NCBI RefSeq assembly: GCF_947496485.1
Contig: NZ_CANMCZ010000005.1
Location: forward strand, 1-64,000
Reading direction: 5' to 3'
Origin: an uncultured Winogradskyella sp.
GTDB lineage: Bacteria; Bacteroidota; Bacteroidia; Flavobacteriales; Flavobacteriaceae
DNA: 64,000 nt
In this document: piece by piece, positions 39,571-56,986 of the stretch
Layout: each line of letters starts with the position of its first letter
How positions within the stretch are numbered: the stretch's first letter is position 1
Translations under genes and position numbers: made by a program
The notes under the pieces: model-generated
Databases searched by the model: none
The model's input: only the letters and a program-made list of their open reading frames with translations
Told to the model about the DNA's origin: nothing

Positions 39571-39624
39571 TTGTATGTTTTTTGTATAGTCTTTTTTTGC
39601 GAATTCAACATTTTTTTATGTTAG
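39571..39624 (+). promoter_or_regulatory. Putative operator and promoter of susC
   Basis: Operator: TTGTAT at 39571 and TTGTATAG at 39582 (11-bp period). Then seven T and G (39592-39599, possible -33 TTTG), a 17-bp spacer containing GAATTCAACATTTTTT, and TATGTTAG at 39617-39624 as a degenerate -7. The same series of elements recurs at 47337-47391. A further TTGTATG lies at 39555. An alternative -7 (TAATTTTG) is at 39550. Confidence 0.55.
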
Positions 39625-39649
39625 GTTGCATTATCTAACATATGAAACT

Positions 39650-42600
39650 ATGAAAATAAAACTTTTTATGCTCTTTGCTTTTTTCTTTACGGTTGCAATG
39701 CATGGGCAAAATGTCAATGTTAAGGGAACAGTGACTGAAGTTTCTTCAGGACAACCCTTACCAGGTGTTAATGTAATTATCAAGAATACATCTACAGGAA
39801 CAGCCACAGATTTTGATGGTAATTTCACCTTAAATGATGTCCCTTTAAATACGGTAATCGTTATTTCTTATATAGGTTTTATAACCCAAGAGATAACAAT
39901 CACCAACGACAAACCACTTACTATTTTATTACAAGAAGATGCAGAATCTTTGGATGAAGTAGTAGTTATAGGTTATGGAACTCAATCTAAAAAAGAAGTA
40001 ACAGGTGCAGTATCCGTAGTTTCTAGTGAAACAGTTGATGCATTAAAACCAACACGAATTGAACAAGCGTTGCAAGGTCAAGTTGCTGGTGTAAATATTG
40101 TATCAAATTCTGGTTCTCCAGGCGCAGGTTCAACAATAAGTATTAGAGGAGTTTCCACAAACGGTGCAACGCAACCTTTAATTTTGGTAGATGGTACTGT
40201 TGTAGAAGATTTGAGTGTCATTAACCCAAATGATATTGAGACTATAAATATATTAAAGGATGCAACTGCAGGTATCTATGGCGTTAGAGCTGCAAATGGT
40301 GTGATTCTTATTACGACCAAATCGGGTAGAAAAAGTATGCCATTGACTGTTGATGTAACAGCTTTTGGTGCTATTCAAGAAACGACCAGAGAAGTTCCTT
40401 TGTTAAATGCTACAGAATATGCATTATTACTTAATGAATCGTTTGCAGCTAATGGGGAGGCAATACCTTATCCAGACGTTTCAGGTTTAGGTCAAGGAAC
40501 GGATTGGCAGAAGGAAGTTTTCCAAACTGCACCACTATTTAGTAATGCCATAACTTTAAGAGGTGGTGGTGAAAAATCAACTTATGCCTTTGGTAGTTCA
40601 TTTTTAACTCAAGATGGTATTGTTGGCGGAAATAAATCAAATTTCTCCAGATTAACGAAAAGATTAAGTTACAGTTTAGATTTTTTAGAAAATTTTAAAA
40701 TCAATACTGGTATAACTTGGACACATACCACTAGAAAAGCATTACCAGAGAATGGAATTGGTTCTGTACTCTTTAATGCCGTGAACATGGCTCCAACACT
40801 AGGCATAAATGATGCTGCAACTAATCTTGGTTTTGAAGTTGTAAACCCATTAAAGCAAATTGATAACACTTACAATAGAGGTTTAGTCGATAAATTAAAT
40901 GGAAACATTAATTTATCGTATAATTTTTTGGAACATTTTACGGCTCAAGCGAGTTATCAATTTAACTACTCTCAGGAGACCAATACGTCTTTTTCTCCTT
41001 TTGTGGATTACGGTATTGAAGGAACGGTTGATAAAGTATTTGATTTGTTACCGAACGATGATGTGGATAATAATTCAACTTTTAGAGGCAAAACGTACCG
41101 CAGAGATTATACCTTTGATGCCTTTATTAAGTATGAAAATACTTTTGGTGACGACCATAACCTAAATTTATTATTAGGGACTTCAGTTTTTAAAACTACT
41201 GGTGATTTTAATTTTTTCGCAGGCTTTGGTATTAGAGATAATAATATTGCCTTTGCAAATTTAGATGATGCGCTTAGAATAGAGAATCTCAATCCTAATG
41301 GAAATGATCTAAGTTATGATTCTAGGTTATTATCTTATTTTGCAAGAGCACAATACGACTATAAAGGAAAATATTTATTTTCCGCCGTCGTAAGACGTGA
41401 TGGTTCCAGTAATTTTGGTCCAGAAAATAAATTTGGTATTTTCCCTTCTGGTTCTATCGGTTGGGTGGCTTCAGACGAAGCATTCTTAGAAGATAGTGAT
41501 TTTATGAACTTTCTAAAATTAAGAGCTTCTTATGGTATTTTGGGTAACGATAGAATTGGTGCTTTTGGATTTGTTTCGGTTCTGGATGGAGAAGCAACTT
41601 ATGTGTTTGATGACACCTTAGTTTTTGGTAATGCTGCAGGAAGAATTGGTAATCCCGAAATACGCTGGGAAAAACAAAAAACATTCGATGTTGGTTTAGA
41701 TATGCGTTTTTGGGATAATAAAATAGATGTAACGCTAGATTACTTTGAAAAACGTACAGAAGACTTGTTGGTGCAACCTGAAGCTTCAGGTATAATCGGT
41801 ACAGGTGCTCCAGGCGCATCTCCCCCAATAATTAATGCCGGAATTGTTGAAAACAAGGGTATAGAATTCGCCATAGGCTATTCAGAACAACTGAGTGATA
41901 ATGTTAGGTTCAACCTTAAGTATAATATTACAGCCATAGATAATAATGTCGTCTCAGTAAGTCAAGAAGGTGGATTTGTACCAGGGGGTGCATTTGGTAT
42001 AGGTCAAGAACCACCATCACGTATGGAAGCTGGTCAGCCAATAGGCTACTTTAGAGGTTTTAGAACTGATGGAATTTTCCAGAATCAAGCACAAATTGAT
42101 AACTCGGCAGTGCTCAATAGTAATACACAACCTGGTGATCTTATTTTTGTAGATATCAATGGTGATGGCGTTATAAACGATATGGATAAGACAAATATTG
42201 GAGACCCAATACCAGACGCCACAATGGGATTAAACTTGTCTTTCGATTTTTATAATTTCGATTTTGGAGCCTATGCTTTTGCATCAGTAGGAAATGAAAT
42301 TGTAAGAAACTACGAGAGAAATCTTCCTTTAACCAATAGAACTATACAGTATTTAAACCGTTGGACAGGTGAGGGTACAAGTAATAGCTTCCCAAGAGTA
42401 ACCACAGGTGCTACTAATAATACCTTATTCTCAGATTTTTATGTAGAAGACGGTTCTTTTATTAGATTACAGAATGTGCAGTTAGGTTATACGATAAACG
42501 CTGAGACATCAGAAAAATGGGGAATTAGTAAATTGAGATTTTATATATCTGCTCAAAATTTAGTTACATTAACAGAATATACAGGTTATGACCCAACAAC

Positions 42601-42691
42601 ATCAAATGGTGCGCCAATTGGTGGTGGGATTGATTACGGATTTTATCCTAATCCAATAAGATATGAATTAGGAATGAACTTAAAATTTTAA
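39650..42691 (+). CDS. SusC-type TonB-dependent outer-membrane glycan transporter
   Basis: 1013 aa from ATG at 39650; the in-frame TTG 24 bp upstream is rejected because the signal peptide MKIKLFMLFAFFFTVAMHGQ starts here. A carboxypeptidase-regulatory-like domain is at about 22-95 (VKGTVTEVSSGQPLPGVNVI), then a TonB-box region (LDEVVVIGYGTQ), a plug domain with ILKDATAGIYGVRAANGVILITTK, and the SusC signature barrel to the C-terminal Phe (YELGMNLKF). It should import beta-glucan oligosaccharides together with the SusD 7 bp downstream. Confidence 0.95.
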   Translation: MKIKLFMLFAFFFTVAMHGQNVNVKGTVTEVSSGQPLPGVNVIIKNTSTGTATDFDGNFTLNDVPLNTVIVISYIGFITQEITITNDKPLTILLQEDAESLDEVVVIGYGTQSKKEVTGAVSVVSSETVDALKPTRIEQALQGQVAGVNIVSNSGSPGAGSTISIRGVSTNGATQPLILVDGTVVEDLSVINPNDIETINILKDATAGIYGVRAANGVILITTKSGRKSMPLTVDVTAFGAIQETTREVPLLNATEYALLLNESFAANGEAIPYPDVSGLGQGTDWQKEVFQTAPLFSNAITLRGGGEKSTYAFGSSFLTQDGIVGGNKSNFSRLTKRLSYSLDFLENFKINTGITWTHTTRKALPENGIGSVLFNAVNMAPTLGINDAATNLGFEVVNPLKQIDNTYNRGLVDKLNGNINLSYNFLEHFTAQASYQFNYSQETNTSFSPFVDYGIEGTVDKVFDLLPNDDVDNNSTFRGKTYRRDYTFDAFIKYENTFGDDHNLNLLLGTSVFKTTGDFNFFAGFGIRDNNIAFANLDDALRIENLNPNGNDLSYDSRLLSYFARAQYDYKGKYLFSAVVRRDGSSNFGPENKFGIFPSGSIGWVASDEAFLEDSDFMNFLKLRASYGILGNDRIGAFGFVSVLDGEATYVFDDTLVFGNAAGRIGNPEIRWEKQKTFDVGLDMRFWDNKIDVTLDYFEKRTEDLLVQPEASGIIGTGAPGASPPIINAGIVENKGIEFAIGYSEQLSDNVRFNLKYNITAIDNNVVSVSQEGGFVPGGAFGIGQEPPSRMEAGQPIGYFRGFRTDGIFQNQAQIDNSAVLNSNTQPGDLIFVDINGDGVINDMDKTNIGDPIPDATMGLNLSFDFYNFDFGAYAFASVGNEIVRNYERNLPLTNRTIQYLNRWTGEGTSNSFPRVTTGATNNTLFSDFYVEDGSFIRLQNVQLGYTINAETSEKWGISKLRFYISAQNLVTLTEYTGYDPTTSNGAPIGGGIDYGFYPNPIRYELGMNLKF

Positions 42692-42698
42692 TAGAACG

Positions 42699-44162
42699 AT
42701 GAAAAATTTAAAAATCACTTATATTTTTATAGCATTGTTTGTCATGGCTTCATGCAGTGATGACTTTGTAGATGTAGATTCTAACAATGAAAATTCAGAA
42801 GATTATTTTAATTCAGAAGAGGATTATCAAGACGCCTTAATTGGTGCATATGATTTATTGCAATCAACATACTTAAATGTCATGTTAGGCGAAATTGCGT
42901 CGGACAACACATTAGCTGGTGGCGAAAATGCCAATGATGTCCCAGGAATTCAAGAAGTAGATGATATGATACATACTCCAATAAATGCTCAGCTAAGAGA
43001 TATTTGGAGTTGGATGTACGCTGGTGTTAACAGAGCCAATTACATTATGGAATTTCAAAATAAAACAGATTTTTCTGGTAAAGAAAGTGTTTTAGCACAA
43101 GCTAGATTCTTAAGAGCATACTATTATTTTGAATTAGTTAAGTGGTTCGGAGATGTACCTTTTGCGGTTGATCAACGTATCCAATTTGGAGATCAGTTTT
43201 CAATTGGTAGAACACCTAAAGCAGAAATCTATGCACAGATAGAACAAGATTTAATATTTGCAGCAGATAATTTGCCTTACATTCAGTCTCAAAAAGGTAG
43301 AATAACTAAAGGTGCTTCACAGGCTTTATTAGGTAAAGTGTATTTGTTTCAAAATAAATTTCCTGAAGCTGCAACTGTTTTAGAAGATTTAATTGATAAT
43401 GGACCATACGATTTATTATCTGATTACAGTACTATGTTCGAAAATGATAATGAAAACAATATAGAATCAGTGTTTGAGGTACAGTACACAGATCAAGAAG
43501 GTGCTGGTTTTGGATGTTTACAATGTAGTGAAGGAAATGTGGCAGTAGGATTTAATGGTATTAGAAACTACAATGGGCCTAACTTTGAATCTGGTTTTAG
43601 TTTCAATGTACCAGTGCAAGAGGTTGTAGATGAGTTTGAAGATGGGGACATGAGGTTAGAAACTGCAATTTTAGATATTGAGGCTTGGGCTGCAGATACT
43701 GGTGCTACATTTGGTACTGGTTTTGAACATACAGGCTACTTCAATAGAAAATATATTTCAAGAGAAGGAGATGCAAATATTGGAGATGCAAATTTAACTA
43801 ACCCTAATAATTACAGAGCAATACGTTTTGCAGATGTATTATTAATGGCTGCAGAAGCTCTTAATAGAGGTAGTATTAGTGATATGAGAGCGCAAATGTA
43901 TTTAAACAGAGTTAGAGAGCGTGCTTTCGGAAATTCAGATAACAATGTAAGTGCTACAGGTGCTGCATTAACTGAAGCTATTTATCATGAAAGAAGAGTA
44001 GAATTAGTTGGTGAAGGCCATCATTTCTTTGATTTGGTTAGAACAGGAAGAGCAGCTTCAGAAATTGATGGTTTCCAATCTGGTAAGCACGAATTGTTCC
44101 CGATTCCATTAATAGAAATACAATTAGCTGGTAATCAGTGGCAACAAAATCCAGGATATTAA
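42699..44162 (+). CDS. SusD/RagB-type surface glycan-binding lipoprotein
   Basis: 487 aa. The lipoprotein signal ends at Cys19 and is followed by SDDFVD, very close to the surface lipoprotein export signal known from F. johnsoniae (SDDFE). SusD features: RANYIMEF, ARFLRAYYYFELVKWFGDVPF (about 128-148), TPR-like helices, and the C-terminal RAIRFADVLLMAAEAL and ERRVELVGEGHHFFDLVRTG. It caps the SusC barrel and captures oligosaccharide. It starts 7 bp after susC. Confidence 0.95.
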   Translation: MKNLKITYIFIALFVMASCSDDFVDVDSNNENSEDYFNSEEDYQDALIGAYDLLQSTYLNVMLGEIASDNTLAGGENANDVPGIQEVDDMIHTPINAQLRDIWSWMYAGVNRANYIMEFQNKTDFSGKESVLAQARFLRAYYYFELVKWFGDVPFAVDQRIQFGDQFSIGRTPKAEIYAQIEQDLIFAADNLPYIQSQKGRITKGASQALLGKVYLFQNKFPEAATVLEDLIDNGPYDLLSDYSTMFENDNENNIESVFEVQYTDQEGAGFGCLQCSEGNVAVGFNGIRNYNGPNFESGFSFNVPVQEVVDEFEDGDMRLETAILDIEAWAADTGATFGTGFEHTGYFNRKYISREGDANIGDANLTNPNNYRAIRFADVLLMAAEALNRGSISDMRAQMYLNRVRERAFGNSDNNVSATGAALTEAIYHERRVELVGEGHHFFDLVRTGRAASEIDGFQSGKHELFPIPLIEIQLAGNQWQQNPGY

Positions 44163-44173
44163 AAAAGAGCAAC

Positions 44174-46132
44174 ATGAAAAAAATAAAATTAATTTTAGCA
44201 AGTTTTCTGTTCATAGCTTTTATCGGCTGTGAAGAAGATGAACGTGGAACACAATTCGTAGATAATGCTGATGCACCAAGCGAAGTTAATCTGCAGTTTA
44301 CAATTGCACAAGATAATTCAGGCTTAGTAAGCATCACTCCTAATGGAGTGGGAGCTACAAAGTTTAACGTTGCATTTGGTGATGGGACTGGAAACACTGC
44401 AGATTTAGAACCTGGGCAAACTATTGATAATGTGTATCCAGAAGGTACATATACAGTTACAACTATCGCGACCGGCATTAATGGTTTAGAAACTCAAGTA
44501 GAGCAACAATTAGTGGTATCATTTAGAGCACCAGAAAATTTGAATATCACGGCAGAAGTTGACGCTTCGAATCCGTTTCAGGTTAATGTTTCGGCGACAG
44601 CAGATTTTGCAGCATCATTCTTGGTTTATTTTGATACTTCAAATCCAGATGAAGAGCCTACACCTTTAGGAGTAGATGGTACTGTCAGTAATATTTACCC
44701 ATTAGTAGGTGATTACACAATTAGAGTTGTAGCTCTAAGTGGAGGTAATGAAACAACTGAGGGTTTAGAAGATGTAACGATTTCTTCACCAACAGAATTA
44801 CCGATAGATTTTGAAGCTTTTGATATAACAGTATTTTTTGGGTTTGGTGGTGCTTCAGGTGACATTATTGCCAATCCGGATACAAATGGGAATGCTTCTG
44901 CGACTGTTGCTAGAACTGTTAAGGGTGGACCAGAACCTTGGGCAGGTAATGTGATTGAGCTTTCTGCACCAATGGATTTTAGTACTCAAAAAATTATGAC
45001 CTTAGATGTTTGGTCACCTAGGGCTGAAGGGACATTTTTAATGAAATTAGAAAACTTGACGGACAATGGAATCTTTATTGAGAAATCAGTAACCTTGCAG
45101 GGTAATGGTGCTTGGGAAGAAGTATCTATAGATTTCTCTGATATTGATACTTCACAAGAGTATCAAAAAATAGTTTGGTTTTTTGATTTTGGCACTATCG
45201 GAGATGGAAGTACTGATTGGACGTTTTATCTTGATAATATAGATCAAACTGCTCCAGTAAATCCTGTTTTTGATGACGGATTACTAACGAATGGAGATTT
45301 TGAAAATGGAAGTGATTCATGGCTTGTTGGGGTAGATGATTCTAGTTCAGCTCCTGTGGTAACTAATGGCGGAAACACCTATTATTCTGTAGATGTAACT
45401 ACCGCAGGAAATCCTTTTGATGTAAACCTTAGTCAAAAACTTGAAATTATTCAAGGGGAAACATATACTTTAACTTTTGATGCCTGGTCTGATGTAAATA
45501 GATCAATAATAGCAGGAATCGGTTTAAGTAGCGGTGATTTTTCTAATACTAATGAAACAGTAAATATAACACCGACAGTAACCAATTATACACTTACACT
45601 GACTGCAACAGGTTTTGGAGCATTAGATGCGCGTGTTCTCTTTGATGTAGGGGCAGAAGTTGGTATGGTTAATATTGATAACGTATCATTAATAATACCT
45701 ACCAATAATTTATTAACCAACGGTGATTTTGAAAATGGAAGTGACTCTTGGATAGTCGGTGTAGATGATAACAGTCCGGCTCCAGTAGTAACCGTTGATG
45801 GAAACACCTATTATTCTGTAGATGTGACTTCTGCAGGTGATGCATTTGCTGTTAACGTAAGTCAAAAACTTGAAGTTATTCAAGACGAAACTTATACATT
45901 AACTTTTGATGCTTGGTCTGATGTTAATAGATCAATAATAGCCGGAATAGGTCTAAGTGGTGGTGATTTCTCTAATACTAATGAAACTGTGAACATAACA
46001 CCAACAGTAACTACATATACACTCACATTAACGGCAACAGGTTTTGGAGCATTAGATGCACGGGTTCTTTTTGATATAGGAGCAGAAGTTGGTATGGTTA
46101 ATATAGATAATGTATCATTATCACTTAATTAA
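44174..46132 (+). CDS. Surface glycan-binding lipoprotein with duplicated C-terminal carbohydrate-binding modules
   Basis: 652 aa from ATG at 44174 (lipoprotein signal, Cys18 followed by EEDE, so probably surface-exported). Layout: two PKD/Ig-like domains (about 35-210; FNVAFGDGTGNTADL is PKD-like), a beta-sandwich module (about 215-360, LPIDFEAFDITVFFGFGGA) related to one in the 653-aa lipoprotein downstream, then two near-identical CBM4/9-like modules (about 370-512 and 513-652, LLTNGDFENGSDSW). There are no catalytic motifs. In laminarin PULs such proteins hold polysaccharide at the cell surface. It starts 11 bp after susD. Confidence 0.8.
   Translation: MKKIKLILASFLFIAFIGCEEDERGTQFVDNADAPSEVNLQFTIAQDNSGLVSITPNGVGATKFNVAFGDGTGNTADLEPGQTIDNVYPEGTYTVTTIATGINGLETQVEQQLVVSFRAPENLNITAEVDASNPFQVNVSATADFAASFLVYFDTSNPDEEPTPLGVDGTVSNIYPLVGDYTIRVVALSGGNETTEGLEDVTISSPTELPIDFEAFDITVFFGFGGASGDIIANPDTNGNASATVARTVKGGPEPWAGNVIELSAPMDFSTQKIMTLDVWSPRAEGTFLMKLENLTDNGIFIEKSVTLQGNGAWEEVSIDFSDIDTSQEYQKIVWFFDFGTIGDGSTDWTFYLDNIDQTAPVNPVFDDGLLTNGDFENGSDSWLVGVDDSSSAPVVTNGGNTYYSVDVTTAGNPFDVNLSQKLEIIQGETYTLTFDAWSDVNRSIIAGIGLSSGDFSNTNETVNITPTVTNYTLTLTATGFGALDARVLFDVGAEVGMVNIDNVSLIIPTNNLLTNGDFENGSDSWIVGVDDNSPAPVVTVDGNTYYSVDVTSAGDAFAVNVSQKLEVIQDETYTLTFDAWSDVNRSIIAGIGLSGGDFSNTNETVNITPTVTTYTLTLTATGFGALDARVLFDIGAEVGMVNIDNVSLSLN
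45281..46129 (+). repeat. In-frame tandem duplication of a CBM4/9-like module, period 429 bp
   Basis: Unit 1 at 45281-45709 and unit 2 at 45710-46129. Both start Leu-Leu-Thr-Asn-Gly-Asp-Phe-Glu-Asn-Gly-Ser-Asp-Ser-Trp and both end VGMVNIDNVSL. I count about 16 amino-acid differences in 137, with strong nucleotide similarity, which suggests recent duplication or gene conversion. Confidence 0.9.
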
Positions 46133-46190
46133 GTTTAGAACGATTTGTGTTTTAAAATTAACAATAGAAAAAATAGTTAAAACAATTAAC

Positions 46191-47135
46191 ATGAAAAATT
46201 TAAAATATATAGTATTGAGTTTATTCTCATTGTTAGCAGTGACAAGCTGTCAAGAGGAAGATTTAACCTTTGGGGATATAACAACACCAGCAAACATACA
46301 AATAGACGTTGATATTGCAGGTGCAGATATAGACAATCCAAATGGTGATGGCACTGGTATTATAAACTTAACAACTTCTGCGGATAACGCATTATCAATA
46401 CATTACAAGATATTAGGCGAAACCGTCTTGGCGGATGGAAATGGTAGTGCTACGTATCGTTTTACAGAATTAGGTCTAAACACTTACACTATAACTGTTA
46501 TTGTTTTTGGAACTGGTGGTAATTCATCTAGTCAAAGTATTGATGTAGATGTACTTTCGTTATTTGAAGCACCAGAGGCACTATTAGCAAAGATAGAAGG
46601 ATTAACTTTTAGAATAAAAGCTGAATTGGGAGGCGTGAACGGTGTAACGGGTCATTTTGGTTTAGGTCCAATTGGAGGTTCAGGTTTTGGTGAATTCTTT
46701 TCTGCTGGTGCTTTTGACAAAAGTGAAAGCGGTATGTACGATGATAGATATATCTTTAACGCAGATGGTACTTTTACACATATAACTAATAGTGAAAATG
46801 ATGACCCAATAATAGACACATCTGGTACTGTTTTTGGAAGACAAAATTTAATTGACGAGCTTAATGAAGGACCGGGTAATGCTGTAGGAGCTGATATTGA
46901 GCAATATGCATATTCAGATTTTTCTGGGAATTGGCAGCTTATTCCTTTTGGGGATGAAGGAGTTGCTCTGCGCTTATCTGGTTTAGGTTTTATTGGTTAT
47001 TATGTTGGTGGGGACCATACTTACGAACTTTTCCAATGGGACGATGTAAATTTACCAAATGAAGATTTAGTTCTAAGAACAACTGATGGGAATAATGAAT
47101 TTGATTGGTGGTTTAGAATAACTAGTAGTGACTAA
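46191..47135 (+). CDS. Second surface glycan-binding lipoprotein
   Basis: 314 aa from ATG at 46191. Lipoprotein signal (YIVLSLFSLLAVTSCQEEDLTFGD), acidic after Cys20, so probably surface-exposed. An Ig/PKD-like domain spans about 35-125 (LSIHYKILGETVLADGNGSATYRF). The C-terminal domain (about 140-314) has GHFGLGPIGGSGFGEFFSAGAFD and ends EFDWWFRITSSD, rich in exposed Trp/Tyr as expected for glycan binding. The N-terminal frame extended upstream is not part of the protein. A promoter-bearing gap of 320 bp follows. Confidence 0.72.
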   Translation: MKNLKYIVLSLFSLLAVTSCQEEDLTFGDITTPANIQIDVDIAGADIDNPNGDGTGIINLTTSADNALSIHYKILGETVLADGNGSATYRFTELGLNTYTITVIVFGTGGNSSSQSIDVDVLSLFEAPEALLAKIEGLTFRIKAELGGVNGVTGHFGLGPIGGSGFGEFFSAGAFDKSESGMYDDRYIFNADGTFTHITNSENDDPIIDTSGTVFGRQNLIDELNEGPGNAVGADIEQYAYSDFSGNWQLIPFGDEGVALRLSGLGFIGYYVGGDHTYELFQWDDVNLPNEDLVLRTTDGNNEFDWWFRITSSD

Positions 47136-47336: not shown

Positions 47337-47391
47337 TTGTATTGATTTTGTATAGGTGTTTTTTTGAGAAATTAATATTTTTTTAACCTAA
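47337..47391 (+). promoter_or_regulatory. Putative operator and promoter of the glycosidase-barrel gene
   Basis: TTGTAT at 47337 and TTGTATAGGTG at 47348 (11-bp period), then seven T and G at 47359-47366 (possible -33), a 17-bp spacer with GAAATTAATATTTTTT, and TAACCTAA at 47384-47391 in the -7 position; a TAATTTTA lies at 47389. Order and spacing match the susC upstream region almost base for base. The rest of 47136-47455 shows no gene. Confidence 0.55.
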
Positions 47392-47455: not shown

Positions 47456-50400
47456 ATGAGAAACTATTTTCTGAGACTAATATTAATACTAATTACAATT
47501 CCGGGATTTGCACAAGCTGATAAAGTTACCGTTGTAAGAAATGCGGACGGAATGAAATTAGTAGTAAATGGAGAGGACTTCATGATAAACGGAGTCAACT
47601 GGGATTATGTGCCAATTGGAACTACAATTACCGATGCAGGTATTTGGGGTAAGTCAGATGATATCATTAAAGCGGCTCTGGATGGGGAAATGCCCTTATT
47701 AAAAAATATGGGAGTAAACGCTATCAGAACATATGGTCTTCCTCCTAAGTGGATAACTTACATTTACGAAAACTATGGCATATACACGATGCTAAACATA
47801 ACCTTTGGGGCCTACGGACTTACAATTAATGGTGCTTGGACACCACAAACAGATTACAATGACCCTGCAACAAAAGAAGTTTTAATGGCAGAAGCTACTA
47901 ACATGGCTAATACCTACAAGGACACTCCAGGTTTACTTGTATATATGATTGGTAATGAAAATAATTATCACTTATCATGGACTGGAGCAGAAACTGAGGC
48001 TATTCCTATAGAGCAAGACGATTATTCTGTTGCTGCAAGATATTTATATAGAACGATGAATGATGCGACAAAACTGGTAAAAGAGATCGATTCTAATCAT
48101 CCAGTAGCGATATGTAATGGCGATGTAGGCTTTATAGATATAGTAGCTGAAGAATGCAAGGATGTAGATATTTATGGTACTAATATGTATAGAGGGGTTT
48201 CATTTGGTGATGCATTTCAAGTAATTAAAGACAAATTAGATATGCCAGTTCTTTTTGCTGAATTTGGTGCAGATGCCTTTAACGCCAGAGACAATGAAGA
48301 AGATCAATATTCTCAAGCTTATTATAACGTTGGAAATTGGAAAGATATTTATCAAAACGCTGCAGGTTTAGGGAAAGTTGGAAATTCGCTAGGGGGATTT
48401 ACATTTCAATTTAGTGATGGATGGTGGAAATACAAACAAACGGAAAATTTAGATGTTCATGACAATGTCGCCGTTTGGCCAAATGGAGGTTATGCTAGAG
48501 ATCAAGCAAAGGAAGGCGATTTGAATATGAATGAAGAATGGTTCGGTATCTGTGCAAAAGGACCAACTGATGAAAGAGGTCTTTACACACTGTATCCTAG
48601 AGCTGCTTATTATGCATTAAAAGAAGTACATCAATTGAACCCTTATGAAGAAGGATTATCCTTAGAATTCACTGAGAATTATTTTAATAATATTCAGTTA
48701 ATGGAGGCGGTTTTAAAAGCACGTGGCGATAAGGCAGCGCTTGATGGCGGACAAAGTCAGAAAATTAGAATAAGTAATCTAAGTGCGAGATTTACAACAT
48801 TCAATACAGGTGGAAGTCTTATAACTACGCCAGATACACCAGAGCCAGATGGAATTATATTTCCCAATCAATTAGGGTTCGATCATATGCAATCCTACTT
48901 TATAGGTGTCGAAGGTAATCCTGCGCCAAATATGAGAGCTAATGTAAATTTTAATATTGTTGGTAATGTAGCTCAAAACCCAATCGATGAGATTTTTTAT
49001 GAGAATAGATCTAGACCACTTACAGTAAATTCTGATAATGGAAACGTCGTTTTAGGGGATGTAAATAAGGTGAATGTTTACAATGCAGAATTTGAGTGGA
49101 ACACCAAGCATGCTGATATTAGAGGTTTTTACAGAACAGGTCATTATCATTGGGGATATGAAGGTGACTTTTTTGGTCTATATCCAGAAGCGAATTATGG
49201 GCCTAATTTAGATATATATGGTGGTGAAATTTTAGGAATGGAATTTGACGGTAAAGGGGATTTAAATGGTTTAAAGGCAGCGTTTGGTCCACAACTTTGG
49301 TGGGGAGCAAACCCTACAGCGCTATTAAAATATACAAAAAAAATAGCAAATTTTGATGTTACAGGAATTTATCATAGAGATATACAGACAGAACTCTTAT
49401 TTGATGAAAATGGCCAACGTGTTTTAGATGCAAATCAACTTCGAAGTGGTATTATTCCAGCATGGCCTACTGAAAGAGCAACAATTGTAATAGAAAGAGA
49501 ATTCGATAAGTTTGGTATTACACTTGGTGGTATTTGGGGCGGAAGTCCATTAAATGGAAGTGCTTTTCAAGATGTTACTGGTGAACCAGGAAATTATACG
49601 GTCTTTGAAGACAAAATTACGGGCAAAGATAATTGGGGAGGAAAAGCTAAAATCACTTATCAAGGTGGAAAAGTTAATGCTTATGCTCAAGCTGGTGTTA
49701 TGGGCTTAGTTGCTAATGGTGGTGCAGATCAAACTCAAATGTTTACAGGATGGAAATTAAAAGACAACGGTAGTGGAAACCAATCTAATATCCTTGCAGG
49801 ATTTACTTATACAATAGGTGATATTCAAATAGCACCGAATTTTTTATGGCAAAAACCATTAGTAGACGCTATGCCAAGTGATGTTGATGCACCTGGGAGA
49901 TTGAGAAATGTTATTAGTGACCCTTTCGCAGTAAGAGGTAATAGAGAAACTACGGCTGGTGAAATGTTAATTACTTTCGATCCAACTCCTGGTACATGGA
50001 TGTATGAGTGGAATAACGATCGTGCTGAAGATGCAAAGTTTGCAATGAATCTTGGTTTTGTTTATCGTCATTTACCTACACAGCAAGATGCACATATTGG
50101 TTTTAATGCTAATCGTACATTTTTTGCTTTTCCAAATACAGTGCCTGCAGAAGATTTATGGGAAATACATTCAAGGATGGTATCTAAATTAAATCCTGAT
50201 TTAGGCATTATCGGAAATTTCTACTATGGTAATGCTCAAGCTAATGGTGATAGTGAAAGGTTAATTAAGCGTTTTGGCGGTGATATAAGAATGATTTATA
50301 ATAAAATGAAAGTGGAAACTCATGTTAAGGTTAATGATTGGGGACCTTTTGATTACCATCGGGATTTTAACTTAACGTATCCGTTACAGTTAATGTTAGA

Positions 50401-50614
50401 TGTTTCTACATCATTAGGAAAACCAGATTGGTTTATTTTACCAAGTACAACAATAGGTATAAGAGGAACATGGCGTTCAATGGATGAGTTTTCTCCAAGA
50501 TATCTGCCAAACCAAGCCCCTGAATTCGGAGTTCCACCAGTTAGTGCTGTTGGGTTTCCAAATGGTAATGAATGGGAAATAAGAACTTATGTGAACATTA
50601 ATATTGGAAAATAA
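47456..50614 (+). CDS. GH-A clan glycosidase fused to a probable outer-membrane beta-barrel
   Basis: 1052 aa. Signal peptide (LRLILILITIPGFAQA). Residues about 25-400 form a TIM-barrel hydrolase recalling GH2-type and GH72-like beta-glucanases: FMINGVNWDYVPIG, LLKNMGVNAIRTYGLP, acid/base candidate Glu168 in MIGNENNY, and nucleophile candidate Glu269 in VLFAEFGADAF. Residues about 430-1052 are strand-rich with alternating aromatic and glycine residues (AEFEWNTKHADIRGFYRTGHYHW region, final WEIRTYVNINIGK), looking like a porin-type barrel. I infer a surface enzyme anchored by its own barrel. It starts a second transcription unit with its own operator-like promoter. Confidence 0.7.
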   Translation: MRNYFLRLILILITIPGFAQADKVTVVRNADGMKLVVNGEDFMINGVNWDYVPIGTTITDAGIWGKSDDIIKAALDGEMPLLKNMGVNAIRTYGLPPKWITYIYENYGIYTMLNITFGAYGLTINGAWTPQTDYNDPATKEVLMAEATNMANTYKDTPGLLVYMIGNENNYHLSWTGAETEAIPIEQDDYSVAARYLYRTMNDATKLVKEIDSNHPVAICNGDVGFIDIVAEECKDVDIYGTNMYRGVSFGDAFQVIKDKLDMPVLFAEFGADAFNARDNEEDQYSQAYYNVGNWKDIYQNAAGLGKVGNSLGGFTFQFSDGWWKYKQTENLDVHDNVAVWPNGGYARDQAKEGDLNMNEEWFGICAKGPTDERGLYTLYPRAAYYALKEVHQLNPYEEGLSLEFTENYFNNIQLMEAVLKARGDKAALDGGQSQKIRISNLSARFTTFNTGGSLITTPDTPEPDGIIFPNQLGFDHMQSYFIGVEGNPAPNMRANVNFNIVGNVAQNPIDEIFYENRSRPLTVNSDNGNVVLGDVNKVNVYNAEFEWNTKHADIRGFYRTGHYHWGYEGDFFGLYPEANYGPNLDIYGGEILGMEFDGKGDLNGLKAAFGPQLWWGANPTALLKYTKKIANFDVTGIYHRDIQTELLFDENGQRVLDANQLRSGIIPAWPTERATIVIEREFDKFGITLGGIWGGSPLNGSAFQDVTGEPGNYTVFEDKITGKDNWGGKAKITYQGGKVNAYAQAGVMGLVANGGADQTQMFTGWKLKDNGSGNQSNILAGFTYTIGDIQIAPNFLWQKPLVDAMPSDVDAPGRLRNVISDPFAVRGNRETTAGEMLITFDPTPGTWMYEWNNDRAEDAKFAMNLGFVYRHLPTQQDAHIGFNANRTFFAFPNTVPAEDLWEIHSRMVSKLNPDLGIIGNFYYGNAQANGDSERLIKRFGGDIRMIYNKMKVETHVKVNDWGPFDYHRDFNLTYPLQLMLDVSTSLGKPDWFILPSTTIGIRGTWRSMDEFSPRYLPNQAPEFGVPPVSAVGFPNGNEWEIRTYVNINIGK

Positions 50615-50625
50615 AAATCAGAAAA

Positions 50626-52587
50626 ATGAAAAGTATAAAGTTTAACAATTCAAAAATCACATATGTCTTAGGATTGGTTTTAATCTTAAGTTTTGGATGT
50701 GAAAGAGATCTTAGTGATGATGCGGTAGAAGCATCATTTTCTAGTGAAGGTGAAATATTTATAGATAATTTTGTAGGTATGGGAACTAATTTTTATTTAC
50801 CGTTTGCAGACTCAAAATTAGATGCATTTTCCGTAGATAATGATGAAGGTTTTGAAAGTTCAGCATCTTATCGTGTTGATGTACCAAATGCAAGTGATCC
50901 AACAGGAAGTTATGCAGGTGCAATTCTAAGAGTTGATGGCGCAGGTAGAGATTTATCAGGTTATGATGCGCTTACATTTTGGGCAAAGGCATCTCAAGGA
51001 GTGAATGTAGATGCCGTAGGTTTTGGTCAGGATTTTTTACAAAATGAATTCCAAGTTACTGCAAACAATTTGAGTATAGGAACTAATTGGGCAAAGTATA
51101 CAATTCCAATTCCAGATGCTTCAAAATTAGTAGAAGAACGAGGCGTATTTTGGTATGCTGCTGGGACTCAAGCAACAAATGGTTCGGGATATGTTATTTG
51201 GTTTGATGAAATTAAGTTTGAAAGCCTGGGAACAATAGCTCACCCTCGACCAAAAATATTTGATGGCAACGATATGACACAACAAACCTTTAATCTGGCT
51301 ACTATTAATATATACGGTTTAACACAAACATTTAATTTAGCTAACGGTATTAATCAAACAGTTGCAATAACACCTGGTTATTTTGAATTTACGTCATCTA
51401 ACCCTAATGTAGCTACTGTTAATGAATTAGGAGTGATTACAGTAAATAGTCCAGGTACAACAGTAATTACAGCAACATTAGATGGTGTTGATGCACAAGG
51501 ATCATTGACTTTAACCTCATTAGGTGATTTTACTCCAGCTGACACTCCAGACGAAGATCCGGCGAATGTAATTTCAATCTTTAGTGATGCTTACAACAAT
51601 GTCCCTGTTGATTATTATAATGGATTTTTTAATGGTGATGGACAAACAACTCAAGGTGGTGTTGGTCCTGGTGGCGCAGATATTAGTATTAATGGAAATG
51701 GTATTATAAATTACACTCAATTGAATTTTGTTGGTATAGGTACATTTTTAAATGTTCAACCTATTGATGCAACTCAAATGACCCATATACATGTAGATAT
51801 TAATGTTCAAGAGGCCATAGATTCTGGTGATCAATTAACGCTACAATTACTTAATGGTGTTCAGACTGCTAATGAACTTTCTGGTTCTGTAGTTTTAAAT
51901 AGTTCTGAGCTGACATCAAATGGCTGGGAAAGTTTTGATATACCCCTCGGTAACTTCGGATTAGGTGCCAGAGACGCTCTTGGACTACTGTTTTTTAATT
52001 CTACGAATAGTGCTAATGTTCCAACGATTTCAAATATTTATGTAGATAATATTTACTTCTACAAAGAGGTAATAGATCCATCACCCAATGTTGATGATTC
52101 TGCTGCGACTGAAGTTTCATTACCTGTAGGTTTCGAATCTACTACATTAACTTATCAAATTGGTGTATTTGGCGGAGCAGATTCTGCAGTTGAGGTAAAT
52201 CCTGATCAATCAGGTATTAACCCAACATCTACAATTCTTAGAAGCACAAAAACTGTTGGTGCAGAATTCTTTGCAGGAACCACGTTGCAGTTAGATGCAC
52301 CAGTTGACTTTTCGACATCTCAGGTGTTTAGAATGAAAGTCTGGTCTCCAAAAGCTGGAATACCAGTTAGGATAAAACTTGAAAATTCTGCCAATTCAGC
52401 TCAATTTATTGAATTAGATGCTAATACAACTACAACGAATGAATGGGAAGAATTAGAATGGGATTTTAGCAACGCTAACTTTAATGTTGGACCTTTAGAT
52501 ATAGTGGTTATTTTCTTTGAGTTTGTGCCAGGAACTTCAGGAGATGGTTCTGTTTATTATTGTGACGATTTAAAAATTTTAAATTAA
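50626..52587 (+). CDS. Third multi-module glycan-binding lipoprotein
   Basis: 653 aa. Lipoprotein signal with Cys25 (SFGCERDLSDDA), acidic and so probably surface-exported. Modules: CBM-like jelly roll about 45-190 (ILRVDGAGRDLSGYDALTFWAK), a bacterial Ig-like 2 domain about 240-300 (VATVNELGVITVNSPGTTVI), a second jelly roll about 310-480, and a third about 490-653 (LPVGFESTTLTYQIGVFGGA, MKVWSPKAGIPVRIKLEN). The last is related to a module of the 652-aa binding lipoprotein. No catalytic residues are evident. It lies 11 bp after the glycosidase-barrel gene and 12 bp before GH16. Confidence 0.78.
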   Translation: MKSIKFNNSKITYVLGLVLILSFGCERDLSDDAVEASFSSEGEIFIDNFVGMGTNFYLPFADSKLDAFSVDNDEGFESSASYRVDVPNASDPTGSYAGAILRVDGAGRDLSGYDALTFWAKASQGVNVDAVGFGQDFLQNEFQVTANNLSIGTNWAKYTIPIPDASKLVEERGVFWYAAGTQATNGSGYVIWFDEIKFESLGTIAHPRPKIFDGNDMTQQTFNLATINIYGLTQTFNLANGINQTVAITPGYFEFTSSNPNVATVNELGVITVNSPGTTVITATLDGVDAQGSLTLTSLGDFTPADTPDEDPANVISIFSDAYNNVPVDYYNGFFNGDGQTTQGGVGPGGADISINGNGIINYTQLNFVGIGTFLNVQPIDATQMTHIHVDINVQEAIDSGDQLTLQLLNGVQTANELSGSVVLNSSELTSNGWESFDIPLGNFGLGARDALGLLFFNSTNSANVPTISNIYVDNIYFYKEVIDPSPNVDDSAATEVSLPVGFESTTLTYQIGVFGGADSAVEVNPDQSGINPTSTILRSTKTVGAEFFAGTTLQLDAPVDFSTSQVFRMKVWSPKAGIPVRIKLENSANSAQFIELDANTTTTNEWEELEWDFSNANFNVGPLDIVVIFFEFVPGTSGDGSVYYCDDLKILN

Positions 52588-52599
52588 AAAGAGATAGCT

Positions 52600-53430
52600 A
52601 TGAAACATTTAAAAAAAGTATGTTTACCAGTATTATTAGGTTTAACATTGATTTTCTTAAGTTGTGATACTGATGAGACTCAGACTGTGACCAATTTTAA
52701 TAATCTCGTTATGGAAGATAATTTTTCAACCGCTGGTGTTCTTGATTCAAACCTTTGGAATTTTGATATAGGTAATGGAGCAGCACAAGGGATTCCTGGT
52801 TGGGGAAATAATGAACTTCAATATTACACGGATAGAACTGAGAATGCTGTTGTAGAAGATGGGATGCTTAAAATTACAGCTAGGCAAGAGTCTTTTGAAG
52901 GATTGGGTTATACATCAGCCAGAATACAAACTAAAGGAAAGTTTCAACAAAAATATGGGCGTTTTGAAGCTCGTATAAAATTACCATGGGGTCAAGGTCT
53001 ATGGCCAGCATTTTGGATGTTAGGGGATGACAATAATGGTAATGAGGTATGGCCACAAATAGGTGAAATAGATATTATGGAGAATAGAGGTCAGGAGCCA
53101 ACGTTAATTAATGGCAGTGTTCATGGTCCAGGATATTCAGGTGGTGAAGCAATTACAAAAGCTTTTGAGCTTGAAAATGATCGTTTTGATACAGGTTTTC
53201 ATATTTTTGGTATAGAATGGGGTGAAGACTACATTAATTACTACGTGGATGATGTATTATATAATCAGATAACACCTTCAGATGTGACAGGTCAATGGGT
53301 ATTTAATGATGAATTTTACATTATAATGAACGTTGCAGTAGGGGGAAATTATGTAGGCTCACCAAATGCATCAACTGTATTTCCGCAAGAAATGATTGTC
53401 GATTATGTAAGAGTATATTCGGCAAATTAA
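52600..53430 (+). CDS. GH16 laminarinase (endo-beta-1,3-glucanase), lipoprotein
   Basis: 276 aa. Lipoprotein signal with Cys22 followed by DTDET (acidic, surface export likely). The GH16 catalytic motif is GEIDIMENRG: nucleophile Glu156, Asp158 and acid/base Glu161. Other GH16 laminarinase features are YTDRTENAVVEDGMLKITAR, KFQQKYGRFEARIKLPWGQGLWPAFWML and the C-terminal MIVDYVRVY. It would cut laminarin at the cell surface to sizes that pass SusC/SusD. A terminator follows. Confidence 0.95.
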   Translation: MKHLKKVCLPVLLGLTLIFLSCDTDETQTVTNFNNLVMEDNFSTAGVLDSNLWNFDIGNGAAQGIPGWGNNELQYYTDRTENAVVEDGMLKITARQESFEGLGYTSARIQTKGKFQQKYGRFEARIKLPWGQGLWPAFWMLGDDNNGNEVWPQIGEIDIMENRGQEPTLINGSVHGPGYSGGEAITKAFELENDRFDTGFHIFGIEWGEDYINYYVDDVLYNQITPSDVTGQWVFNDEFYIIMNVAVGGNYVGSPNASTVFPQEMIVDYVRVYSAN

Positions 53431-53539: not shown

Positions 53540-56500
53540 TTGAATTCTACTAATACACTAAACGAAGACATTGCATTAAAATCTGTTTCAATAGATAATG
53601 AAGCTTATTTTAAGATTTCTAACAGTAATAGAATGCGTCCTTTTTTTATGAGCATTGTCAGTGATTCTAATCACTGGATGTTTATATCTAGTAATGGAGG
53701 TTTAACAGCAGGACGTAAAAATTCTGAATTTGCACTATTTCCATATTACACAGATGATAAAATTACAGAATCTGCTGATATTACAGGTAATAAATCAATT
53801 TTTCAGGTAAATAGAAATAATCAAAAGTTTGTTTGGGAACCTCTAGCTATAAGACCTTCAGGTGGATATTATATCACTCAAAACCTGTATAAAAATAAGT
53901 TTGGAAATAAGATTATATTCGAAGAAATTAATCACGATTTAGAATTAATATTTAGATACCAATGGAGTTCTAGTAATAAATATGGATTCGTAAAGAAGTC
54001 TACTTTAATAAATACATCCAAAGAATCTGTTAGTGTTAGACTTATTGATGGGATTCAAAATATTGTGCCTGCCGGTATCGGTAGCTATATACAAAATCAA
54101 TCAAGTAATTTGGTTGATGCCTATAAGCGGAATGAATTAGAAGAACCTACAGGACTAGGAATCTTTGCGCTTAGTGCTATTCTTGTTGATAAAGCTGAAG
54201 CAAGCGAAGCCTTAAAAGCAAATGTTGTTTGGTCTTTAGGCTTAGACAACCCAAAATATTTAGTGTCTTCTTTGCAATTAAACAAGTTTAGATCTGGTGA
54301 ACACGTTAGACAAGAGGTAGACGTAAAAGCTGAAAAAGGTGCTTATTTTGTGTCTGCAGAAATTGAATTAGCTGTAGATTCTTTCAAGGAATGGATGATT
54401 GTTGCAAATGTAAACCAAAATCATTCAGATATTGCGTTATTGTCTAAGCAAATAAGAGAAGATAAATCGTTGGCAAATAAAGTCAATGAAGATATTAATT
54501 ATGGAACCGATAAACTCGTTGAGTTAAGTGCGGCATCAGATGCTATTCAAATTACTGCAGATAGTTTAAGAGATACACGTCATTTCGCCAATACATTATT
54601 TAATATAATGCGAGGTGGAATTTTTGATGATAATTATAGAATTGAAAAATGGGATTTTAGCAATTACCTTGAAAATGCCAATAAAAAAGTAGCACGTACA
54701 TCAGAACCTATTCTAGCTGATCTTCCAGATATTTTCTCTTTGGCAGAAATACAAAAAATAGCATACAATAGCGAAGACAAAAACTTTAGACGTCTTTGCT
54801 TGGAGTATATGCCATTAAAATTTAGTCGCCGTCATGGCGATCCAAGTCGTCCTTGGAATAAATTCTCTATTAATACGAAAAGTGAAATAGACGGCTCTAA
54901 AATTTTAGATTACGAAGGGAATTGGAGAGATATATTTCAAAACTGGGAAGCCTTAGCGCACTCGTATCCGGAGTTTATAGAAAGTATGATTCATAAATTC
55001 CTGAATGCATCTACGTTTGACGGTTACAATCCTTATAGAGTAACAAAAAGCGGCTTCGATTGGGAAATAATCGAACCAGATGACCCATGGTCTTATATTG
55101 GCTATTGGGGAGACCATCAAATTATATACTTGCTTAAGTTTTTAGAATTTATCAATAATCATAAGCCAGGTAAATTAGAAAGTTTCTTTACAGAAGATCT
55201 CTTTGTATACGCTAATGTGCCGTATAAAATAAAACCATACGAAGACTTATTAAAAAATCCAAAAGACACTATTGTATTTGATGATGCATTGGATCATAAA
55301 ATCCATGAAGAGCGCGAACAACTAGGTGCTGATGGTGCTTTGCTTAGAGATGAGAACAGATTCATTGTAAAAGCAAATTTTATTGAAAAAATACTGGCAA
55401 CATCTTTAGCAAAGCTATCAAACTTTATACCTGAAGGTGGAATTTGGATGAATACACAGCGTCCAGAATGGAATGATGCAAACAATGCATTAGTTGGCAA
55501 TGGAGTCTCAATGGTAACACTTTATTATTTACGTAGATTTTTCAACTTCTTTGAAGATTTACTAGCTTCAACACATATTGATGATGTAGAAATTTCTAAT
55601 GAAATTTATGACTTCTTCAGTAGGATATTAGAAACTTTTGAAAACAAAAAAGACTTATTATCAGATTCAATAAATGATGTTGATAAAAAAGTAATATTAG
55701 ATAGTTTAGGAAAAGCAGGTAGCGACTATAGAACTCATATTTATAACCATGCCTTTTCTGGAAGAAAAACGACACTTTCAATTAATAGGTTGAAAGCCTT
55801 TGTTACCATTAGTAAATCTTATTTAGAACATTCTATTAGAGCAAATAAGCGTTCAGATAATTTATACCACGCCTATAACTTAATGACTGTTAATCAAAAT
55901 AACTCTATTTCAATTTCATATTTAAGTGAAATGCTTGAGGGTCAGGTTGCTGTTTTAAGTTCTGGTTATTTAACTTCAAGAGAGTCATTAAAGGTTCTAG
56001 ATGCTTTAAAAGGCAGTAAGCTTTTTAGAGAAGATCAATACAGTTATTTATTATATCCAAACAAAGAATTAAAAGGCTTTTTAGAACGAAATACAATTCC
56101 ACAAGAGGCTGTAAATTCTTCAGAATTAATGCAAGTATTAGTCAATGACGGTAATAAACAGATTTTAGAAAAGGATATTAACGGCGACTATCATTTCAAT
56201 GGTAATTTTAAAAATGCCAGTGATGTTTCTGATGCTTTGATAAAACTTTCCGAAACCAAATACAAATCTTTAGTAGATTCCGATTCAAAATTAATTTTAG
56301 AAGCTTTTGAGTCCGTTTTTAACCACAAAGCATTTACAGGAAGATCTGGTACTTTTTACGGTTACGAAGGGCTTGGGTCTATTTATTGGCATATGGTTTC
56401 TAAGTTATTATTGGCCGTTCAAGAGTGTTGTATAAAGGCTGTGAATGATGGAGAGAACGAAATTATTGTAGGTCATTTATTAGAGCATTTTTATGAAATC

Positions 56501-56986
56501 AACGAAGGCATCGGTGTACATAAATCACCTGAGTTATATGGTGCTTTCCCTACTGATCCTTATTCGCACACACCAGGAGGCAAAGGTGCGCAACAACCAG
56601 GAATGACAGGGCAGGTAAAAGAAGATATTTTAAGCAGATTTGGTGAATTAGGAATCTTTGTTTCTAATGGTAAGCTTTTTTTTAATCCAAGTCTATTGAG
56701 AAAAAATGAGTTTTTTACTGAAGCTACAGTTTTTGAATATGTAGATCTCTTTAAGGAAAGAAAAAGTATTCAAATGGAGTCAGGATCATTAGGATTTACT
56801 TATTGTCAAGTACCAATTGTATACCAAATATCAGAAAAAGACAGTTTAGAGATTTATTTTAAAGTTGGTAGTTCTAAAACGATGGAAAGTTTAATAGTAG
56901 ATACTTCAATAAGCGAGCAAATTTTTATGAGAACGGGAGAAGTAACTAAAATTATTGCTAATATAAATTCTGCTTATTTAAAGTAA
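53540..56986 (+). CDS. GH149-like beta-1,3-oligoglucan phosphorylase
   Basis: 1148 aa, no signal peptide, cytosolic. Likely start TTG at 53540; the first ATG is residue 33 and would cut into conserved NSNRMRPFFMSIVSDSNHWMF. The N-terminal beta-sandwich with SNGGLTAGRKNSEFALFPYYTDDKI resembles GH94-type phosphorylases. The (alpha/alpha)6 part holds GGIWMNTQRPEWNDANNALVGNG with proposed catalytic Asp646 in EWND. Length above 1100 and the laminarin PUL context favour GH149 over GH94 (about 800-900 aa); GH161 is the alternative. It would phosphorolyse beta-1,3-gluco-oligosaccharides to glucose 1-phosphate, saving ATP. Confidence 0.8.
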   Translation: MNSTNTLNEDIALKSVSIDNEAYFKISNSNRMRPFFMSIVSDSNHWMFISSNGGLTAGRKNSEFALFPYYTDDKITESADITGNKSIFQVNRNNQKFVWEPLAIRPSGGYYITQNLYKNKFGNKIIFEEINHDLELIFRYQWSSSNKYGFVKKSTLINTSKESVSVRLIDGIQNIVPAGIGSYIQNQSSNLVDAYKRNELEEPTGLGIFALSAILVDKAEASEALKANVVWSLGLDNPKYLVSSLQLNKFRSGEHVRQEVDVKAEKGAYFVSAEIELAVDSFKEWMIVANVNQNHSDIALLSKQIREDKSLANKVNEDINYGTDKLVELSAASDAIQITADSLRDTRHFANTLFNIMRGGIFDDNYRIEKWDFSNYLENANKKVARTSEPILADLPDIFSLAEIQKIAYNSEDKNFRRLCLEYMPLKFSRRHGDPSRPWNKFSINTKSEIDGSKILDYEGNWRDIFQNWEALAHSYPEFIESMIHKFLNASTFDGYNPYRVTKSGFDWEIIEPDDPWSYIGYWGDHQIIYLLKFLEFINNHKPGKLESFFTEDLFVYANVPYKIKPYEDLLKNPKDTIVFDDALDHKIHEEREQLGADGALLRDENRFIVKANFIEKILATSLAKLSNFIPEGGIWMNTQRPEWNDANNALVGNGVSMVTLYYLRRFFNFFEDLLASTHIDDVEISNEIYDFFSRILETFENKKDLLSDSINDVDKKVILDSLGKAGSDYRTHIYNHAFSGRKTTLSINRLKAFVTISKSYLEHSIRANKRSDNLYHAYNLMTVNQNNSISISYLSEMLEGQVAVLSSGYLTSRESLKVLDALKGSKLFREDQYSYLLYPNKELKGFLERNTIPQEAVNSSELMQVLVNDGNKQILEKDINGDYHFNGNFKNASDVSDALIKLSETKYKSLVDSDSKLILEAFESVFNHKAFTGRSGTFYGYEGLGSIYWHMVSKLLLAVQECCIKAVNDGENEIIVGHLLEHFYEINEGIGVHKSPELYGAFPTDPYSHTPGGKGAQQPGMTGQVKEDILSRFGELGIFVSNGKLFFNPSLLRKNEFFTEATVFEYVDLFKERKSIQMESGSLGFTYCQVPIVYQISEKDSLEIYFKVGSSKTMESLIVDTSISEQIFMRTGEVTKIIANINSAYLK

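Follow-up and report, generated by a model that had tools for sequence, protein, structure and literature searches.

A glycosidase fused to a predicted outer-membrane β-barrel in laminarin-type gene clusters of Bacteroidota: a candidate oligosaccharide port

The DNA stretch analyzed here (the window, 64,000 nucleotides) comprises positions 1-64,000 of the forward strand of contig NZ_CANMCZ010000005.1 (assembly GCF_947496485.1) from an uncultured Winogradskyella sp., and its gene content indicates a locus of the β-1,3-glucan (laminarin) type. One open reading frame (ORF) of this locus encodes a glycoside hydrolase (GH) domain joined to a predicted outer-membrane β-barrel, and the ORF after it encodes a lipoprotein, here called Lipo653. 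The fusion is discussed below as a candidate oligosaccharide port that would carry its own periplasmic enzyme. Its features, in window positions, are as follows.

47456-50614, + strand: glycosidase-barrel fusion ORF, 1052 aa
47456..47512, + strand: signal peptide, type I, residues 1-19, mature start Q20 (hydrophobic start, judged by eye)
47513..48745, + strand: GH-A glycosidase domain, residues 20-430
47957..47959, + strand: E168, putative acid/base, in GNEN
48260..48262, + strand: E269, putative nucleophile, in FAEFG
48746..48766, + strand: short linker, about residues 431-437 (placed between the end of the last GH helix, residue 430 in the first structure model, and the start of strand 1, residue 438 in the second)
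48767..50608, + strand: predicted 24- to 26-strand outer-membrane β-barrel, residues 438-1051 (AlphaFold2, topology, fold matches, alternation)

A preliminary description of this DNA had read the C-terminal 600 or so residues as a barrel fused to the enzyme in one protein, and both points were borne out. AlphaFold2 predicts an even-stranded barrel, and not a soluble β-sandwich or propeller, with 26 strands, or 24 when a short hairpin is taken as a loop, and a predicted template modeling score of 0.74. The first model, built from 43 alignment rows, had left residues 430-545 poorly defined and the linker at low confidence, and a second model was therefore made. The solved structures listed as fold matches of the barrel model are outer-membrane barrels, with AlgE tying with uptake porins. 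Strand connectors in the model alternate between short turns and long loops (medians of 2 and 26 residues, p 1.7e-4), and the residue alternation pattern of the sequence agrees with amphipathic strands. Strand residues that point inward are polar, and their conservation exceeds that of lipid-facing ones (0.827 versus 0.725).

These approximately 600 residues belong to no family in Pfam or NCBIfam. Searched against the sequences of solved structures, the barrel profile returned nothing (the best hit, at E 1.1, was an antibody chain), and the whole alignment returned matches to the enzyme domain only. Pfam and NCBIfam gave no plug, carboxypeptidase-like or TonB-dependent receptor match in the fusion, while the SusC of the window scored 834 bits. 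Autotransporter barrel profiles and sorting profiles of the type IX secretion system (T9SS) were also unmatched (Pfam up to E 1, NCBIfam up to E 0.1). No Pfam match to POTRA or Omp85 was found, and with this and its 24 to 26 strands the fusion falls outside the PL-Omp85 proteins.

The N-terminal domain has a TIM barrel with two catalytic-type glutamates after strands 4 and 7, as expected of clan GH-A, and E168 and E269 are assigned their putative roles because of this clan. Both glutamates, singled out in the preliminary description, are kept in all 169 rows of an alignment that includes genes fetched twice. Residue Q20 is invariant in 43 of 43 rows, and no lipobox was seen on reading the N-terminus, so that the claimed absence of a lipoprotein cysteine stands and the signal looks like type I. 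The sole Pfam match of the fusion is the GH2-type TIM barrel PF02836 (residues 33-280, 34.1 bits against a cut-off of 21), and the NCBIfam scan gave no match above cut-off. The sugar-binding and immunoglobulin-like β-sandwich domains that precede the TIM barrel of GH2 enzymes had no Pfam match up to E 1; the TIM barrel begins directly after the signal peptide. Near folds of the domain include GH157 and GH158, which, judging by structure titles, were solved with laminari-oligosaccharides, and the most likely substrates are β-1,3-glucan oligosaccharides.

The other genes and features of the window locus are listed below.

36599..39403, + strand: sensor/regulator (Reg_prop, Y_Y_Y, LuxR-type helix-turn-helix; Pfam)
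39580..39599, + strand: promoter-like element, copy upstream of SusC
39626..42691, + strand: SusC (TIGR04056, 834 bits)
42699..44162, + strand: SusD (Pfam)
44138..46132, + strand: CBM4_9 lipoprotein, probably surface glycan-binding (Pfam, N-terminus)
46110..47135, + strand: lipoprotein (CQEEDLT; N-terminus)
47346..47366, + strand: promoter-like element, the fusion's own copy
50626..52587, + strand: Lipo653, partner lipoprotein, start CERDLSDDA (Big_2 module and a module like 8qx6)
52600..53430, + strand: GH16 lipoprotein (CDTDETQ), probably surface (Pfam, N-terminus)
53540..56986, + strand: GH149-type β-1,3-oligosaccharide phosphorylase without signal peptide (phmmer to 6hq6, 1695 bits, residues 3-1143)
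57056..58285, + strand: GH17 without signal peptide
58379..59653, + strand: GH17 lipoprotein
59686..61179, + strand: GH30 lipoprotein
61191..62756, + strand: sugar transporter of the major facilitator superfamily (MFS)
62781..63698, + strand: GH17 without signal peptide

Structure 8qx6 was deposited as a PKD domain-containing protein, and 6hq6 is taken by us to belong to the family named GH149. The three GH17 genes differ in predicted compartment, with the middle one a lipoprotein and the other two lacking a signal peptide. With GH16, GH17, GH30 and SusC/SusD in one cluster, the locus agrees with variant B of the laminarin polysaccharide utilization loci (PULs), as far as the part of the source consulted describes it (PMC6298971). 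In the 4.11-Mb genome the 20- to 21-base promoter-like element has just two copies, one ahead of SusC and one, already remarked on in the preliminary description, ahead of the fusion, which suggests that two transcription units are regulated together. A more permissive pattern was found within 350 bases upstream in 3 of 79 relatives (0.05 expected from shuffles), and the element is thus not general.

The fusion family is widespread in Bacteroidota. In the family of the window organism, 132 of 397 genomes match the fusion at all, and 79 of these 132 (the window's own included) align over at least 990 residues, with identities of 62-78% apart from the window itself. Profile searches matched 52 of 395 genomes across the phylum, 29 of 395 in the class and 37 of 92 in one other family, some of these being weak hits on the GH domain by itself. 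With the barrel profile, hits were obtained in 30 of 296 genomes of the phylum: 28 hold fused forms (one split over two contigs), 2 hold remnants and none has the barrel alone. Enzyme-only genes also occur, and 12 of the 13 read stop no more than 12 residues from the end of the GH domain. One enzyme-only form (L179, 8382-10457) has a further C-terminal part of 264 residues of another kind. In two other enzyme-only genes (G507:C314 in L188 and G1131:C219 in L283) the profile match continues beyond the stop codon and covers the beginning of the barrel, which looks like a trace of barrel loss; genome G1131 also carries a full fusion elsewhere.

The barrel and Lipo653 behave as one unit that is separable from the enzyme, because they are present or absent together in loci and on trees. 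Lipo653, counted as present at 450 bits or more (a line that we set), was matched in 95 of 98 fused loci and in 0 of 19 enzyme-only loci (Fisher 4e-19); the enzyme-only stretches are shorter on average, and two of the 19 are unsound, with the contig ending at or near the gene in L289 and a broken gene in L189. Among the enzyme-only loci, L180 shows a weak match of 183 bits. As for the three fused loci without Lipo653, the contigs of L073 and L097 end there, and the lipoprotein of L194 lies in the adjoining stretch L287. On a FastTree tree of GH domains (without L287, the same gene as L194), the barrel changes state seven times, and of 6 supported independent pairs a mean of 5.9 show a matching change in Lipo653 (p 0.031-0.0625, median 0.031). 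A second, smaller tree (IQ-TREE) drew on 21 of the 80 loci L031-L110, which are the best 80 of at least 584 matches and over-represent fused forms; it omitted L189, L287 and the loci with contigs ending at or near the gene (L073, L097, L289), and scored Lipo653 as present in L194 from the adjoining stretch. There Lipo653 follows the barrel in 4 of 4 pairs (p 0.125), too few for significance. Genomes G982 (fused, with Lipo653) and G827 (enzyme only, without Lipo653) belong to one genus and both have SusC/SusD; as a pair they do not prove a simple loss, their GH domains not being sisters on the trees and the G827 row (L281) lying on a long branch.

Among the 60 of the 80 named relatives with both 10-kb flanks, Lipo653 and GH16 were each found in 60 loci, the regulator in 55, GH149 in 54 and GH17a in 46, while SusC was found in 19 and SusD in 20. 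The fusions of Flavivirga rizhaonensis (L054) and Flagellimonas allohymeniacidonis (L050) have no SusC/SusD match in their 10-kb flanks. At 20 kb, surveyed in 10 genomes inside the window organism's family and 10 outside it, Lipo653, GH16 and the MFS carrier occur in 20 of 20 and GH149 in 19. SusC/SusD lies inside the cluster in four of these genomes (G157, G338, G283, G069) and 18.6 kb off in G211, a weak SusC-like match lies 16.5 kb off in G518, and in the remaining 14 of 20 neither was seen within 20 kb. SusD of the window type (at least 50% identity) was found in 5 of the 20, G267 among them, while the top-scoring SusD of another 14 does not exceed 39% identity. Likewise, 76 of 98 fused loci have no SusC/SusD within the stretch fetched. 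The earlier suggestion that cleavage is coupled to uptake next to SusC/SusD therefore holds in part: coupling to passage in a glucan locus is possible, but the fusion does not always stand beside SusC/SusD.

On which side of the membrane the enzyme lies was deduced from the barrel model. Short turns of outer-membrane barrels face the periplasm. The start of strand 1 and the end of the last strand both lie on the short-turn face, and since connectors alternate and the strand number is even, both ends of the barrel should face the periplasm. With strand 1 entering from the periplasm after a linker of about 7 residues, the GH domain should sit beneath the barrel on the periplasmic side, provided that it is not passed through the barrel. 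The surface display proposed in the preliminary description thus probably does not hold in this model.

Acidic residues at the N-terminus of lipoproteins are used as a sorting guide to the surface, and the surface-type lipoproteins of the window locus begin CEEDE, CQEED or CSDDF. Of the 13 enzyme-only forms, 7 carry type I signals by eye, 5 carry lipoprotein signals and 1 is cut; none of the 5 has two adjacent acidic residues. Lipoproteins of the same non-acidic kind are GH-A relatives of about 340 aa with 31-34% identity (L292, 7914-8939; L293, 7423-8457; L294, 7895-8908), a soluble counterpart that stands in a fusion-type locus between GH17 and GH30 or MFS, beside GH149. The signals of both groups fit a periplasmic enzyme.

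The fusion is best read as a channel in the outer membrane that carries a glycosidase on its periplasmic side and serves, together with Lipo653, as an oligosaccharide port beside or instead of SusC/SusD, and we put the probability of this reading at about 0.57. Surface GH16 would cut laminarin, Lipo653 may bind, gate, cap or otherwise assist the barrel, and the barrel would admit laminarin oligosaccharides without TonB. The GH domain at the inner mouth would trim the oligosaccharides at once and so keep them from leaking back, after which the GH17 and GH30 lipoproteins would finish trimming in the periplasm, the MFS carrier would import short oligosaccharides and GH149 would phosphorolyse them in the cytosol. 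In the window genome the port would work beside a SusC/SusD pair having the same promoter element, and in many relatives the fusion is apparently the cluster's only outer-membrane port. A broader proposal, which we hold tentatively and at somewhat less than even odds, is that the giant glycosidase-porin and its surface lipoprotein form a second, TonB-independent glycan importer of Bacteroidota, with one-way uptake by cleavage at the periplasmic mouth. This importer would be the sole outer-membrane port of many laminarin clusters, and through it would pass a share of the marine laminarin flux that is at present credited to SusC/SusD genes.

Several observations weigh against the port. The barrel has a mean predicted local distance difference test score of 73, 3 of the 12 "short" connectors have 6, 10 and 21 residues and 4 of the 13 "long" ones have 6-7, and the long loops could close the pore. 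A distant 399-aa relative (L295, 7440-8636) with a type I signal and, by eye, a T9SS-like C-terminal tail looks like a secreted protein; its gene order is not of the laminarin type. SusC/SusD is present in the window cluster itself and in 22 of 98 fused loci, not significantly different from 6 of 19 enzyme-only loci (p 0.39), so that a replacement of SusC/SusD by the fusion has no statistical support. Neither a barrel nor SusC/SusD was found in the stretch fetched for 13 of the 19 enzyme-only loci. Finally, a SusC/SusD pair can apparently serve from a distance, since in G267 a window-type SusD is encoded about 29 kb from the fusion and G435, in which the window SusD query had no match, has one pair 35 kb away. 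Two of our own notions were dropped: that G435 is wholly without SusD, when SusC and SusD family searches found this pair, and that SusC/SusD is commoner in enzyme-only loci (median p 0.25 over independent pairs, p 1 on the second tree).

Among the alternatives, an anchor survives best, although we consider it unlikely: the barrel would link the periplasmic enzyme and the surface lipoprotein into a transenvelope utilisome scaffold through which no sugar passes. The close pairing of barrel and Lipo653 is consistent with this, and the long loops could fill the lumen, but 24 to 26 strands around a conserved polar interior would be more than an anchor needs, and no other port was seen near most clusters. 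It is much less probable that the barrel moves Lipo653 or GH16 to the surface, with the glycosidase a passenger of operon history. Slam proteins of Neisseria translocate lipoproteins in this way, and the joint gain and loss of barrel and Lipo653 would suit such an exporter; against it, the surface-type SusD and CBM4_9 lipoproteins probably occur in other kinds of loci without the barrel, and the enzyme keeps its glutamates in every row. Equally improbable is an autotransporter-like barrel that exports the glycosidase or holds it outside the cell, for which the surface-exposed look of the GH16 and lipoprotein partners and the apparently secreted L295 speak. The N-terminus on the short-turn face and the short linker speak against it, and autotransporter barrels, none of whose profiles matched, have 12 strands, half the number found here. 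An AlgE-like exporter of glucan, or of a transglycosylation product edited by the enzyme, is the least credible, since AlgE ties with uptake porins in the fold matches and the neighbors, which comprise GH16, GH17, GH30, MFS and phosphorylase genes, are catabolic; the neighbors scanned gave no match to a synthase or glycosyltransferase.

Laminarin ranks among the major sugars of algae, and how Bacteroidota take it up is judged from SusC/SusD genes. If cells are fed by a fused port in the absence of SusC/SusD, surveys based on these genes would overlook such clusters; in the part consulted, one study files carbohydrate-active enzyme (CAZyme) genes without susCD as "CAZyme clusters" (PMC10108472). 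The "GH0" of variant-1 laminarin PULs in that study is perhaps the fusion family or, equally, the 340-aa relatives. Another study, also consulted in part, reports a "GH2" gene in Muricauda laminarin PULs and suggests a β-1,6-glucosidase (PMC13188888). This "GH2" is very probably the fusion family, because the record SGIU01000001 compared there is L050, whose gene order is regulator, fusion, lipoprotein, GH16, GH17, GH30. Both studies, in the parts seen, treat the gene as a plain glycosidase, and in the Muricauda text seen barrel, SusD, TonB and outer membrane are absent and SusC appears in a reference only. No description of a glycosidase-porin fusion of this kind was found by title and beginning of abstract, in a search that left subscription literature mostly uncovered; an enzyme carrying its own outer-membrane barrel in laminarin clusters would thus be a feeding mode without description in the literature searched. 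If the port is real, a sugar channel with an enzyme on its exit would be a simple way to one-way passive uptake.

Compared with known enzymes, the GH domain shares 13-22% identity with GH157, GH158 and GH2 proteins, from which the fused outer-membrane barrel sets the protein apart, and the accessory domains of GH2 are absent. The channels ScrY, LamB, OprD/Occ and AlgE have 16-18 strands and, unlike the fusion, no fused enzyme. A similar architecture is that of PlpD of the PL-Omp85 proteins, where an N-terminal enzyme sits on a C-terminal outer-membrane barrel; in the part of the source consulted, this enzyme, long thought to be secreted, is periplasmic (PMC11116518), a precedent for the placement proposed here. 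PlpD differs in having a patatin-like domain, POTRA and a 16-strand Omp85 barrel, whereas the fusion has a glycosidase, no POTRA match, 24-26 strands and a laminarin locus. With SusC/SusD importers it shares barrel and lipoprotein genes side by side in glycan loci, but in place of a recognizable plug, carboxypeptidase-like or TonB-receptor domain it carries a fused enzyme.
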